DNA of 33,851 bases from Gammaproteobacteria bacterium. GTDB taxonomy: Bacteria; Pseudomonadota; Gammaproteobacteria; GRL18. Every line of letters begins with the position of its first letter. Positions within the stretch are counted from its first letter, which is position 1. The stretch spans positions 1-33,851 of the forward strand of contig JAPHSW010000259.1 in the NCBI GenBank assembly GCA_026196615.1, read 5' to 3'. The notes beneath the pieces were generated by a model. The model did not search any database. It was not told the DNA's origin and saw only the letters and a list, made by a program, of their open reading frames with translations. Of this stretch, positions 3,007 to 11,980 are shown piece after piece. A program made the translations under genes and the position numbers.

Positions 3007-3594
3007 CTATATTACTGCATTATAGTGACTGTCTCGTGTGTCAATCATATATCGACTGACACCAGCTACTTCAGCTTTAACAATTAAGTCGGTTTCCATA
3101 TCGCAAGCCATTGCATCAACACAGATTTGACATATTTTAAAGTTAACTCCCAATTGTTCGGCAGATTTTATAAGTTCTGTTAATGATGCCATTCCTTTCT
3201 TTTTCATAATTCGTGACAGAACAAAGGGACCGGCTCCCAGAAAGTTTAATTGAGACATTGGTAAATGTTCTGCACCTTGATGATTCAATATTTGTAAAAT
3301 TTTTTGCCAACCGGTATCGGTTTTTTTATTACGACCAATAGTTCCGGATAGCTTATTAAATGAAAAAAAACGAGACAGTGAAAAATGGCTTCGTGGTTTC
3401 TTTAGACAATTAACTCCTTGTAAAATAAACCACATATTCATCTGAGTGCCCATCGCTTGCATACCAACAGCCACTTCAAAAGCTAAGATTGCATGATCCA
3501 GGTTACCACTGACAAGCATAATGGTTCCCTTGTCACGATTGATAGTTGGAGTGCTTTCATGTGATTCTTTTGTCGTTTCAGAAGGACTCGTCAT
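3007..3594 (-). CDS. dsrE2: DsrE2-like (DsrE/F-family) sulfur-relay protein
   Basis: A 195-residue DsrE/DsrF-like protein. The opening strand-helix GTIMLVSGNLDHAILAFEVA and the later CQICVDAMACD segment resemble the DsrE2 subgroup, whose cysteines are thought to hold sulfane sulfur passed to or from TusA during sulfur oxidation or sulfur trafficking. The Cys-x2-Cys pair sits at about residues 155-158, and a further Cys is present near 62. The hydrophobic stretches near residues 25-65 fit the family's reported membrane association, but this is not certain. An AAGGG ribosome binding site lies inside the end of tusA. The two genes are separated by 2 bases, so they form one transcription unit. 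The exact sulfur donor and acceptor are not shown by the sequence. Confidence 0.85.
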   Translation of the reverse strand: MTSPSETTKESHESTPTINRDKGTIMLVSGNLDHAILAFEVAVGMQAMGTQMNMWFILQGVNCLKKPRSHFSLSRFFSFNKLSGTIGRNKKTDTGWQKILQILNHQGAEHLPMSQLNFLGAGPFVLSRIMKKKGMASLTELIKSAEQLGVNFKICQICVDAMACDMETDLIVKAEVAGVSRYMIDTRDSHYNAVI

Positions 3595-6505: not shown

Positions 6506-6925
6506 CTAAGATACTGTGCTTATCTCTTGCACCTGTTGTTTCATTAAGGCGACTATGGCATAAATACCGACATGTCTATTGGGTGAAAGATGTTCATCAA
6601 GTTGTAATCGTCTAAATAACTCATCAATATCCATGTTTTCTATAACTTCAGCTGTTTTATCTTCTACAAGGTTAATTAAAACAGCTAATACTCCTCTAAT
6701 GATGCTTGTATCACAATAACCATAGTAATGAAAATGTAGAGGTTTGTTTTCATCATGATAGGCACAAACATAAACTATACTCATACACCCTTTGACATTA
6801 TTTTTTTTAACCATCAAATGTCTGGGCATTTCTGGTAATTTGTCTCCCAATTCAATGAGATAATTGTAACGTTGCTCCCAGTCACCAAGTAGTTCAAATA
6901 CATCGACTAAATCATCTAAAGTCAT
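6506..6925 (-). CDS. sufE: SufE cysteine desulfuration protein
   Basis: A 139-residue SufE-family protein, the usual length. The sulfur-accepting cysteine lies in VKGCMSIVYV (Cys47). The following strand-helix (HYYGYCDTSIIRGVLAVLINL) and C-terminal LDEHLSPNRHVGIYAIV match the family. SufE takes persulfide from the desulfurase SufS, stimulates it, and passes sulfur to the SufBCD scaffold. It is the fifth gene of the operon. The expected partner sufS is missing from this cluster, so SufE must work with a desulfurase encoded elsewhere. The upstream gap of 98 bases and weak AAAGG ribosome site suggest it is translated independently of sufT. Confidence 0.93.
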   Translation of the reverse strand: MTLDDLVDVFELLGDWEQRYNYLIELGDKLPEMPRHLMVKKNNVKGCMSIVYVCAYHDENKPLHFHYYGYCDTSIIRGVLAVLINLVEDKTAEVIENMDIDELFRRLQLDEHLSPNRHVGIYAIVALMKQQVQEISTVS

Positions 6926-7023
6926 AACAATGCCTTTTATTTAAATGATTTGCTAAAACTGTACATGACTTGTAACCCTTTTATTAATTTTTCAGAGGTA
7001 TATTCATTAATAATGATTTATAA

Positions 7024-7422
7024 CTAAAATAAACCCAGTGATAGTTTAATATCGTCACTCATAGAGTCTCTACTCCAGACGGGCTCCCAAACTAAACTGA
7101 CTTTAACATCACTGACACCTTCTATTAATTTAATAACGTCTGAGACTTGTTTGGTTAAAACGTCACCGACAGGACAAGTTGGTGCAGTTAATGTCATTTT
7201 GACGACAACTTCCGTACTATGATTGATCTTTATATTGTATATCAGACCTAAATCATAGATATTTACAGGTATTTCAGGATCGCGTACTGTTCGTATTGCA
7301 GCAATTACTTTATCTTCAAGTTTTGCATTTGAAGGTATTTTTTCTGTTTTTATCAGTGAACTTCTAGTACTTTTATCGATACTCGAATGATTTTTGTGGA
7401 AAAAAATGGTTTTTTTATCCAT
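7024..7422 (-). CDS. sufT: SufT-like MIP18/DUF59 iron-sulfur maturation protein
   Basis: A 132-residue protein. After a poorly conserved, lysine-rich N-terminal 30 residues comes a MIP18 (DUF59) domain: AAIRTVRDPEIPVNIYDLGLIY and TLTAPTCPVGDVL, with the conserved cysteine at residue 83, and finally VSLVWEPVWSRDSMSDD. SufT-type members of this family help insert or transfer iron-sulfur clusters to client proteins. The Trp-Pro-Trp-like C-terminal segment and position inside a suf operon favour SufT over PaaD or the Mrp N-terminal domain. GAGG precedes the start by about 9 bases and the gap to sufD is 11 bases, so these two are cotranscribed. Confidence 0.9.
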   Translation of the reverse strand: MDKKTIFFHKNHSSIDKSTRSSLIKTEKIPSNAKLEDKVIAAIRTVRDPEIPVNIYDLGLIYNIKINHSTEVVVKMTLTAPTCPVGDVLTKQVSDVIKLIEGVSDVKVSLVWEPVWSRDSMSDDIKLSLGLF

Positions 7423-7433
7423 TAACTTATCCT

Positions 7434-8780
7434 CTAGTGAAAATCTTGTTTATCTAATGTTAAGACTAATTTTTTTGAAACGTGTTCAGATATTTTTTTC
7501 TCATCAATATTTTTAATAATTTCATCTGCAAAGCCAAGGCATAATAATCGGTATGCCGTTGTATTTGATAAACCTCTTGAGCGCATATAAAACAATTGCT
7601 CTGGGTCTAGTTGTCCAATTGTTGTACCATGACTGCATTTGACATCATTTGCATAGATTTCAAGCTGTGGTTTAGTGTCTACTTCAGCATCTTGCGTGAG
7701 CATTAAGTTATTGTTTTTGAGTTGGGCATCGCTGTGTTGTGCTTGTTTCTCTACGAGTATATGACCGTCAAATACTGAACGTCCTTTGCCATATACAATA
7801 CTTTTGAAATGTTCTTTACTGACACACGATGGTACATTATGTTGTACATCAATATGAAAATCTGTGATTTGTTGATTTCCTACAACGCAGAATCCATTTA
7901 TTAGACAGCTGGCATTTTCACCTTGAAAGTCAACATTTATATTTGTTTTTGACCATGCAGAATCAAATGATATAAAACTGCTTTCATAATGGCTGTTTTG
8001 TTGTTGTGAAATAGATAGACTACTTAAATGAAAAGCTTTTTGACTATCTTCTTGAACTCGATAATGTTTTAATTTAGCACCTTTATCTAAATGAATATTA
8101 CTGTGATTATTGTGAAAATATTGATCGTTATTTTCGCCAATGAACCGTTCTATTATTGTTGTTTCTGAACCGACCCCTATTGATATAATGTTTCTGCAAT
8201 GTGTTGTGATACCATCATTAATCTCATTATCAAAATGATTTAAATTATTTATGTTGAGATATATAATTTCAATTGGTTTATCTATTTTTGTTTGATCACC
8301 AATATGAATGACCGCGCCATCATCCATCAATGCCATGTTTAGATCAGAAAATAATTCATTGTTATTAAAATGACTAATACTCTTAATCATTTTTTTTGGT
8401 TCTTGATTAATCGCATCACGTAAACAGCCTATATTGGTTTTATCATGTGTTTCAAATGGCGTTGACCATTGAGTTGTGTAACGGCCATTAACAAAAAACA
8501 GGCGATGAGTATCCAAAGAAGGAAGTAGGTAGTGGTGGATATGAATTGTATGAAGGTTGATATCACCAGAAGAGAGTTTAAAGTTTTTGTCAAATAATTT
8601 ATCAATATGATTGTATCGCCATTCTTCCTGCTTTCGAGTTAATGTTGGATATTGCATAACAGCCTGTCGTGCTTTGCTGTGTATTTTATTGAGCAAGATA
8701 CTATTGCAATTTATATCATGTGACTTAGCTTGTGTGATAATTTTTTGTAACCAGTCTTGTTGTTGTTTTGTCTGGATCAT
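7434..8780 (-). CDS. sufD: SufD, Fe-S assembly scaffold subunit
   Basis: A 448-residue SufD-family protein. The N-terminal helical part (KQEEWRYNHIDKLF) leads into a long beta-helix (about residues 130-370), and the C-terminal region EIYANDVKCSHGTTIGQLDPEQLFYMRSRGL carries the family hallmark, including the Cys-Ser-His-Gly motif. SufD pairs with SufB, and SufC drives the complex, to assemble [4Fe-4S] clusters de novo in the cytoplasm. The start ATG overlaps the sufC stop in an ATGA arrangement. GGAG lies 7 bases upstream, so translation is coupled. Glutamine- and histidine-rich stretches match the AT-rich codon use of the rest of the window; nothing suggests transfer. Confidence 0.94.
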   Translation of the reverse strand: MIQTKQQQDWLQKIITQAKSHDINCNSILLNKIHSKARQAVMQYPTLTRKQEEWRYNHIDKLFDKNFKLSSGDINLHTIHIHHYLLPSLDTHRLFFVNGRYTTQWSTPFETHDKTNIGCLRDAINQEPKKMIKSISHFNNNELFSDLNMALMDDGAVIHIGDQTKIDKPIEIIYLNINNLNHFDNEINDGITTHCRNIISIGVGSETTIIERFIGENNDQYFHNNHSNIHLDKGAKLKHYRVQEDSQKAFHLSSLSISQQQNSHYESSFISFDSAWSKTNINVDFQGENASCLINGFCVVGNQQITDFHIDVQHNVPSCVSKEHFKSIVYGKGRSVFDGHILVEKQAQHSDAQLKNNNLMLTQDAEVDTKPQLEIYANDVKCSHGTTIGQLDPEQLFYMRSRGLSNTTAYRLLCLGFADEIIKNIDEKKISEHVSKKLVLTLDKQDFH

Positions 8781-9529
8781 GCGGCAGCTCCGTCAACTAT
8801 CCAATTGTAACCTTTATCCTCTAGTTCCAATGCCAGTTGTTTATCACCTGATCGTACAATTTTCCCATCAATTAGGACATGCACATAATCAGGCTGTATA
8901 TAGTCCAGTAGTCGTTGATAATGTGTAATCAAGATAATTGCGCGTTCAGGAGTGCGTAGCATATTGACGCCGTTGGCAATAATACGTAGGGCATCAATAT
9001 CCAGTCCAGAGTCTGTTTCATCCAGAATGGCAAGTTTTGGTTCAAGTAAAGCCATTTGCAAAATTTCATTGCGCTTTTTTTCACCGCCAGAAAAGCCTTC
9101 ATTTACATTACGTTTTAGTAACTTTTCATCCAACTTGAGTTGCTTGGCTGTTTGACGTATTAAATTAATCAATTCAAGGCTGTCGTATTCCTTTTCACCC
9201 TTGCTGCGTCGAATGGAATTGAGTGATTCACGCATGAATGTCATGTTATTAACCCCTGGTAATTCAACAGGATATTGCATGGCTAAAAACAATCCTTTAT
9301 GTGCTCGATGTTCTGTATCAAGATCAAGTAAACTTTCATGATTGAGTAAAATATTTCCATTACTGACGACACATTCTTTATGTCCAGCCAATGTATAAGC
9401 AAGAGTACTTTTTCCAGAACCGTTCGGTCCCATAATGGCGTGTGTTTCGCCCTTATTTACTTCAAGATTAAGTCCATTGAGTATTTCTTTGCCACTCACA
9501 GTCACTGATAAATTTTTTATTGTTAACAT
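8777..9529 (-). CDS. sufC: SufC, Fe-S assembly ATPase
   Basis: An ABC-type ATPase of about 250 residues. Numbered from the chosen start, the Walker A motif is GPNGSGKST (34-42), followed by the variant signature FSGGEKKRNE and Walker B LAILDETDSGLD typical of SufC. ATP binding by SufC remodels the SufB-SufD pair during cluster assembly. I place the start at 9529, giving MLTIKNLSV as in known SufC proteins, because a GGAGA site sits 8 bases upstream. An in-frame ATG at 9544 would overlap that ribosome site and add five residues. Its stop overlaps the sufD start by four bases. Confidence 0.95.
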   Translation of the reverse strand: MLTIKNLSVTVSGKEILNGLNLEVNKGETHAIMGPNGSGKSTLAYTLAGHKECVVSNGNILLNHESLLDLDTEHRAHKGLFLAMQYPVELPGVNNMTFMRESLNSIRRSKGEKEYDSLELINLIRQTAKQLKLDEKLLKRNVNEGFSGGEKKRNEILQMALLEPKLAILDETDSGLDIDALRIIANGVNMLRTPERAIILITHYQRLLDYIQPDYVHVLIDGKIVRSGDKQLALELEDKGYNWIVDGAAA

Positions 9530-9571
9530 GAGATATGTCTCCATTAATCTTGTAAGTGTTATTTATGGTTG

Positions 9572-11032
9572 TTAACCCACTGCACCTTCTAAAGTAATAC
9601 TAAGTAATTTTTGGGCTTCCACTGCAAACTCCATGGGTAATTCCTTAAACACTTCTTTGCAGAAACCATTAACGATCATTGATACTGCATCTTCTTCGGA
9701 TAGTCCTCGTTGCTGGCAATAAAATAATTGTTCATCACTAATTTTAGAGGTCGTTGCCTCATGCTCTACTATTGCACTTGGATTCATTACTTCAATATAG
9801 GGAAAAGTGTGTGCACCACATTGATCGCCCAGTAATAACGAATCGCACTGGGTATGATTGCGTGCGTTTTTTGCTCGTTTTGTCATACGAACTAATCCTC
9901 GGTAGGTGTTTTGTCCATGACCAACTGATATTCCTTTGGAAACAATAGTGCTTTTGGTATTTGCTCCAATATGTAACATTTTTGTACCAGTATCTGCCTG
10001 CTGTTTTCCTCGTGTGACTGCAACTGAATAGAATTCTCCTATGGATTCATCACCTGCTAAAATACAACTGGGGTACTTCCAGGTAATTGCTGAACCTGTT
10101 TCAACCTGAGTCCAGGAGATATGTGAACGATTACCTCGACAGGCACCGCGCTTGGTGACAAAATTATAAATCCCACCTTGTCCCTGTTCATCACCTGGAT
10201 ACCAGTTTTGAACAGTAGAATACTTGATATGTGCATCATCCATAGCGACTAGTTCAACGACTGCAGCATGCAATTGATTCTTATCTCTTTTCGGTGCGGT
10301 ACAGCCTTCCAGGTAACTGACATAACTGCCTTCTTCTGCAATAATGAGTGTCCGTTCGAATTGTCCGGTATTGGCCTCGTTTATTCTAAAATAAGTAGAT
10401 AATTCCATTGGGCAGTGCACACCTTTTGGAATATAAACAAAGGTGCCATCAGTGAAGACTGCCGCATTGAGACAGGCATAAAAATTATCGGAATAGGGGA
10501 CGACTGAACCCATGTATTGTTTAACTAAATCAGAGTGTTTTTGAATTGCTTCTGACAGTGAACAAAAGATTACGCCTGCTTTTTCCAGGCTATCACGAAA
10601 GGTTGTTGCTACTGAAACACTGTCAAAGACAGCATCTACAGCAATTCCTGATAAAACTTTTTGTTCTTCTAGAGGAATACCGAGCTTGTTATAAGCATCA
10701 AGTAATTGTGGATCAACTTCATCCAGACTTTTTGGGCCTTCGCCTGCTTTTCCTGGTGATGAATAATAAGAAATTCCTTGAAAATCAATGTCTGGATACT
10801 TTATATGTGCCCATTCAGGATCACTCATCTTCAGCCAACGGCGATAAGCTTTCAGGCGCCATTCTAAGACCCAGGTGGGCTCATTTTTTTTTGCTGATAT
10901 CTTATGAATGACATCTTCGTTTAATCCAGGTGGTAGAGTATCTGAATCAATTGAGGTTACAAATCCATACTGGTAATCATTATTGATGAGCTCATTAACC
11001 GTCTGTTCAGTCGTTTCCTGTATTAAATTCAT
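9572..11032 (-). CDS. sufB: SufB, Fe-S cluster scaffold
   Basis: A 486-residue SufB, the usual length. Recognisable landmarks are [51 protein letters not shown] (Cys244, matching the sulfur-receiving cysteine of the E. coli protein), and [22 protein letters not shown] with Cys396 and Cys405 near the SufB-SufD cluster site. SufB is the main scaffold on which iron and persulfide sulfur are combined. It is the promoter-proximal gene of the leftward suf operon. GGAG lies about 11 bases before the ATG, in a roughly 46-base leader whose first bases form the predicted IscR-type operator. Confidence 0.96.
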
Positions 11033-11053: not shown

Positions 11054-11078
11054 ATACTTGACTAAAATGGTCAGGTAT
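11054..11078 (-). promoter_or_regulatory. IscR type-1-like operator at the suf promoter
   Basis: The 25-bp site consists of half-sites ATACTTGACT and GGTCAGGTAT around an AAAAT centre (plus strand). As I recall the E. coli IscR type-1 consensus (ATAS-YYGACT-RWWWY-AGTC-RRSTAT), 24 of 25 positions fit. It covers the predicted transcription start of sufB, a typical repressor position. Holo-IscR binding type-1 sites represses when clusters are plentiful, so derepression of suf under iron or cluster shortage is the expected outcome. No iscR gene lies in the window. Confidence 0.78.
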
Positions 11079-11084
11079 TACTTA

Positions 11085-11113
11085 TTTATACTCCTTTTTG
11101 ATAGAAACTTCAA
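11085..11113 (-). promoter_or_regulatory. Sigma70-like promoter of the suf operon
   Basis: Reading leftward, a -35 element TTGAAG (11113-11108) and a -10 element TATAAA (11090-11085) are separated by exactly 17 bases. The predicted start, near 11078, falls on the first bases of the IscR-like operator and leaves a leader of about 46 bases before sufB. Confidence 0.65.
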
Positions 11114-11204: not shown

Positions 11205-11290
11205 TTTGAGTTAATAATTATCATAAAACAATTATAGACAGATATCAGATTTTTAATTACGTCTATACTAATGACTAAGGCCATTTCGTA

Positions 11291-11980
11291 TTGCAAATTA
11301 AGCTCAATAAAATCAGTAAGACTTATCAGAATGCTGGTCAAAAGCATAGAATTCTTAACAATATAAACGTTGAGATTAATAAAGGTGAAGTTATTGCTTT
11401 GGTGGGACCTAGCGGCTCAGGAAAAACAACCTTATTGAATCTGATCTCAGGTATTGATGAGCCAGATTCAGGTGAGGTCTTAATCATTGATGAGAGTAAT
11501 CATTTAAATATTAATGCAATGAGTGATGAGCAAAAAACGTTGTTTCGTCGCCATTCTATTGGGTTTATTTTTCAGTTTTTTAATTTGATACCTACTTTGA
11601 CCGTTTTAGAAAATATTCAATTCCCTCTGGAACTATGTGATAAATTAGACCAAAACACTAACGATGATATAAGTTTTTTATTACAGCGTTTGTTAATTGA
11701 TAATAAACGGCATGAATACCCTGAATGTTTGTCTGGAGGAGAACAACAACGAGTGGCAATTGCCCGAGCTATTATTCATCAACCACACATTTTATTAGCT
11801 GATGAGCCCACTGGAAATCTGGATGATGAAACTGGACAACAAGTTATGGATATTTTACTTGAGCTTACGAAAGAGCATCAAATGACCATGCTCATTGTGA
11901 CTCATAATCAAGATGTTGCTGATCGGGCTGATCGCATTTTATCTTTAAAAAATGGGTTTCTTACGGAAAAGTTATCTTGA
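11291..11980 (+). CDS. attE: ABC transporter ATP-binding protein (LolD/MacB type, AttE-like)
   Basis: A 229-residue ATPase. The Walker A motif is GPSGSGKTT (about 39-47), the signature LSGGEQQRVAIARA (about 141-154) and Walker B HILLADEPTGNLD, followed by a switch histidine in VTHNQDVADRADR. This is the LolD/MacB/FtsE branch that pairs with FtsX-type permeases and acts on periplasmic or lipid substrates, not on nutrient uptake. It starts with TTG at 11291; an AAGG ribosome site lies about 10 bases upstream. Its stop overlaps the permease start (TTGA), so the two are translationally coupled. The following permease and secreted CrtC-like lipocalin match the AttEFGH arrangement. The substrate is unknown. 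Confidence 0.85.
   Translation: MQIKLNKISKTYQNAGQKHRILNNINVEINKGEVIALVGPSGSGKTTLLNLISGIDEPDSGEVLIIDESNHLNINAMSDEQKTLFRRHSIGFIFQFFNLIPTLTVLENIQFPLELCDKLDQNTNDDISFLLQRLLIDNKRHEYPECLSGGEQQRVAIARAIIHQPHILLADEPTGNLDDETGQQVMDILLELTKEHQMTMLIVTHNQDVADRADRILSLKNGFLTEKLS

Follow-up and report, generated by a model that had tools for sequence, protein, structure and literature searches.

What governs the suf operon encoded on contig JAPHSW010000259.1 of the Gammaproteobacteria bacterium assembly GCA_026196615.1 (positions 1 to 33,851, a stretch of 33,851 nucleotides that we refer to as the window)? E. coli is the textbook case of a division of labour between the ISC and SUF machines, in which IscR represses isc in its holo form and activates suf in its apo form. 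Its type-1 sites are bound by [2Fe-2S] IscR and repress (PMC12594620). In the window, a 25-bp palindrome precedes sufB on the minus strand (11054-11078), and we consider it likely that this element is a type-1 operator of the genome's own IscR, positioned on the predicted start of a suf operon that lacks sufS (sufB-C-D, a SufT-like gene, and sufE) and that holo-IscR would repress.

Read on the minus strand from 11078 to 11054, the element is ATACCTGACCATTTTAGTCAAGTAT, which agrees with the type-1 consensus ATASYYGACTRWWWYAGTCRRSTAT (wording confirmed against PMC6599224) at 24 of 25 positions; a recount thus returned the figure given in a preliminary description of this near-palindrome. With chance expectations computed from the base composition of the window, a site with at most one mismatch is expected 1.2e-5 times in the window and 0.0017 times in the 4.96 Mb genome, which holds 2. 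At up to two mismatches the genome contains 3 sites against 0.04 expected, and at up to three mismatches 8 against 0.66, such that the three-mismatch sites among these 8 may include chance matches. A control with the reversed pattern gave 0 matches. Scoring with an IscR position weight matrix, a check that the preliminary description had proposed, leads to the same assignment. The matrix was trained on sites that precede iscR in related genomes, with the genome under study excluded, and it gives the window site 29.6 bits, a score reached by 0 of 3 million background positions; the runner-up position in the window scores 8.8 bits. By this measure the suf operator outscores even the genome's own iscR site (24.6 bits). 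In contrast, the best match upstream of suf to the type-2 IscR consensus used here carries 4 mismatches and is no better than those in shuffled sequence.

The case also depends, as was noted at the outset, on the genome encoding an IscR with matching DNA-contact residues, and it does. A profile search finds two Rrf2 proteins, one of which is IscR (TIGR02010, 217.7 bits, above the curated cut-off). This protein keeps all of the E. coli residues that we checked, namely, S40, Y41, E43, Q44, and R59, which contact DNA (PMC11475020), and C92, C98, C104, and H107, which are ligands to the [2Fe-2S] cluster (PMC6599224). Its gene heads a complete iscR-iscS-iscU-iscA-hscB-hscA-fdx operon, in which the genes beyond iscS were identified by reading their translations, and a half-conserved type-1 site lies 68 bases before the iscR start. 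The iscR and suf genes are in separate operons on different contigs.

Related genomes point in the same direction. In a set of 57 genomes, 17 of the 41 that have IscR contain a type-1 match with two mismatches or fewer, compared with 0 of the 16 that lack IscR (Fisher p 0.0012, an optimistic value because related genomes are not independent). We also examined the architecture of 103 sufB loci. Operons led by iscR mostly have type-1 sites before iscR, whereas those led by sufR mostly carry a different palindrome, AGGACTA-www-TAGTCCT or a variant of it. Twelve gammaproteobacterial operons that are led by sufB and lack a local regulator have type-1 sites before sufB that score above the 99th percentile of shuffles (L012, L013, L014, L022, L032, L117, L118 (weakly), L120, L128, L129, L140, and L188); Marinobacter and Alcanivorax are among the related suf operons with type-1 sites. 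No type-1 site was found at two other gammaproteobacterial sufB-led loci without a local regulator, L160 and L034 (the latter in a genome of 0.4 Mb that has no IscR), or at sufB-led loci in records that bear the names of other phyla. The wiring does differ from that of E. coli, as first proposed, with a type-1 site present and a type-2 site not found at suf, but it is recurrent in Gammaproteobacteria, being common to many of their suf operons, and is not unique to this genome. In the literature searched, which included few subscription journals and no regulon databases such as RegPrecise, we came across no report of a type-1 site at a gammaproteobacterial suf operon that stands alone.

How the site might act follows from where it lies. 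On the minus strand, a putative -35 element, TTGAAG (11108-11113), is separated by 17 bp from a putative -10 element, TATAAA (11085-11090), which matches its consensus weakly; a gap of 6 bases lies between TATAAA and the operator, and one of 21 bases between the end of the operator and the sufB start codon. The hexamer pair and its spacing are therefore as originally described, while the accompanying claim that the operator covers the start of transcription is only plausible, since the promoter match is weak and the region is AT-rich. Transcription starting near 11079-11076 would begin at the operator edge. With the operator shortly after the predicted -10 element of suf, a block of initiation is expected. 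When clusters are plentiful, [2Fe-2S]-IscR would occupy the operator and initiation at suf would be blocked. Iron limitation, oxidation, or high demand would strip the cluster, IscR would leave the operator, and suf would be derepressed along with isc, with both rising when clusters are lost. The presence of IscR, its conserved residues, and the site scores all support the earlier proposal in so far as it makes IscR the reader of the suf site; direct repression by the holo form is predicted from the type and position of the site, and the start of transcription is likewise a prediction. The same intergenic region, between suf and a divergent ABC-transporter gene, holds a candidate Fur box (11210-11228, minus strand; a 14/19 match).

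Several observations weigh against this interpretation. The putative suf promoter matches the consensus at only 9 of 12 positions, and shuffled versions of this AT-rich region yield at least as many promoter-like matches as the real sequence (22.5 vs 17). In relatives the type-1 site lies anywhere from 26 to 263 bases upstream of sufB, which leaves a single common mechanism of repression unproven. Finally, the genome has that second Rrf2 protein, an orphan of the SufR type encoded on contig C258 (TIGR02944, 140.1 bits, above the cut-off), and the suf site could be read by it instead. TIGR02944 genes head the suf operon in many relatives, and a type-1-like site sits between the orphan gene and a divergent dsrC-like gene. 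We nonetheless regard this second reader as unlikely. The palindrome shared by sufR-led suf operons is not that of the window: with a SufR matrix built from the sites of such operons, the window site scores 9.5 bits, compared with 29.6 bits under the IscR matrix and with 14 to 36 bits at most sufR-led gammaproteobacterial operons. That palindrome is not enriched in the genome either (9 matches vs 34 in the control). Both the orphan gene and its homologue in G011 adjoin yet another palindrome, ATACC-N5-GGTAT, and IscR is present, with no TIGR02944 protein reaching the cut-off, in several of the genomes whose sufB-led operons carry a type-1 site. With regard to the orphan locus itself (L223:2944-4162, genome G000), the TIGR02944 gene is divergent from the dsrC-like gene, with the type-1-like site and the palindrome ATACCGAAATGGTAT between them, and G011 has the same gene pair. 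The palindrome proposed for the orphan is not enriched genome-wide (27 vs 48). AGGACTA-www-TAGTCCT, or its AGTACT variant, is clear at TIGR02944-led suf loci of Halomonas, Legionella, Methylobacter, and others (for example L048, L126, and L149).

IscR might also bind the site and yet activate suf, or act mainly on the divergent ABC-transporter gene that starts at 11291. E. coli IscR is able both to activate and to repress (PMC8561392), and one intergenic region here serves two divergent genes; however, the position of the operator relative to the -10 element is that expected of a block, the ABC-transporter gene begins more than 200 bases away, and relatives keep type-1 sites upstream of sufB, all of which make either variant improbable. 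A last alternative, in which the palindrome works as RNA, forming a terminator or attenuator hairpin instead of binding a protein, seems to us very remote. On the plus strand the palindrome does form a good fold (-12.3 kcal/mol, z -5.4), which was marked as terminator-like, but folding of the suf mRNA strand is unremarkable (z -1.1), for which reason the hairpin was dropped. Moreover, conservation tracks the protein consensus, including at asymmetric iscR sites that are unable to form a full hairpin, and an Rfam search gave no match.

Repression of suf by IscR from a type-1 site can be set beside several known systems. The type-1 sites of the E. coli isc promoter are alike in site sequence, in IscR residues, and in the predicted negative feedback. 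The preliminary description was right that E. coli places type-1 sites at isc and a type-2 site at suf (PMC12594620); there, suf is activated by apo-IscR (PMC12594620, PMC8593673), whereas here a type-1 site stands at a separate suf operon. Myxococcus xanthus RisR (PMC9973013) is likewise one cluster-bearing Rrf2 regulator that represses both isc and suf, as is predicted here, although RisR belongs to a distant Rrf2 subgroup that lacks the Ser40, Glu43, and Gln44 contacts and uses another DNA site, while the IscR of this genome has all three and the E. coli site. In the alphaproteobacterial isc-suf operon (Caulobacter, PMC11475020; Rhodobacter, PMC4618611), suf is also under negative feedback by IscR, again a prediction in our case; unlike that arrangement, iscR and suf are apart here and ISC is also complete. 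The gammaproteobacterial suf operons led by sufR (TIGR02944) are also headed by a palindrome that an Rrf2 protein presumably recognizes, but the palindrome differs and the regulator gene lies inside the operon. If the proposed wiring is true, many non-enteric Gammaproteobacteria would run isc and suf by one simple feedback, and the same type of operon would have passed repeatedly between IscR and SufR control.

Downstream of the operator, the operon runs sufB-sufC-sufD-SUF_assoc-sufE, all on the minus strand: sufB (9572-11032; NF008773, 908.5 bits), sufC (8777-9544; TIGR01978, 353.5 bits), sufD (7434-8780; TIGR01981, 262.4 bits), a SUF-associated FeS_assembly_P (SufT-like) protein (7024-7422), and a SufE-family protein (6506-6925; Pfam PF02657, 119.6 bits). 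Each is above its family cut-off apart from the SufT-like protein, which at 129.8 bits falls below the TIGR02945 cut-off of 143.4 while exceeding that of Pfam PF01883. No sufS lies in the operon (6506-11032), and none above the family cut-off was found in the genome, which is 99% complete; its best matches to the SufS family are IscS and another class V aminotransferase. SufS above the cut-off was likewise not found in G005, G008, G015, G024, G057, or G059, genomes with close sufB relatives, some of which are incomplete. The SUF machine therefore probably draws its sulfur from IscS or another carrier, with one regulator common to SUF and ISC. A sufS-less operon under the sensor of isc is a more interesting lead than the operator itself, and it raises the testable question of where SUF obtains sulfur without the usual desulfurase. 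We tentatively suggest, while doubting it more than we believe it, that ISC and SUF in this lineage form one machine with one sensor, in which a SUF scaffold lacking SufS would receive sulfur from IscS or from carriers of the DsrC, DsrE, or rhodanese type that are themselves members of this IscR regulon, and in which a drop in holo-IscR would release SUF at the same time as isc.

The history of sufB was approached through a tree of 58 sequences, made by a quick method and with many forks weakly supported. The sufB of the window falls in a group of five (SH-aLRT 99), all of them sufB-led with type-1 sites, and the tree contains at least 8 changes between IscR-wired and SufR-wired operons. Of the 16 genomes of the genus, only 4 have a sufB match, and the nearest sufB in the tree comes from another family, which together suggest horizontal movement or frequent loss of sufB.

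Type-1 sites also occur near other genes. One with a single mismatch lies upstream of a DUF255/Thioredox_DsbH gene (L003:1501-1525). Ahead of a second dsrC-like gene, a weaker type-1-like site with 3 mismatches directly follows a TATACT box (L006:1501-1525), a layout like that at suf. Another of the 8 matches in the genome, beside a rhodanese gene (contig C220), lies at the gene's 3' end, where it may instead be a terminator. In other genomes of the genus (L105, L107, L104, L106, and L110), type-1 sites precede Mrp/ApbC-like and rhodanese-like genes, as named by eye from their translations. Within the window, a DsrE/DsrE2-like sulfur-carrier protein is encoded at 3007-3594, adjoining a GGDEF-EAL gene.
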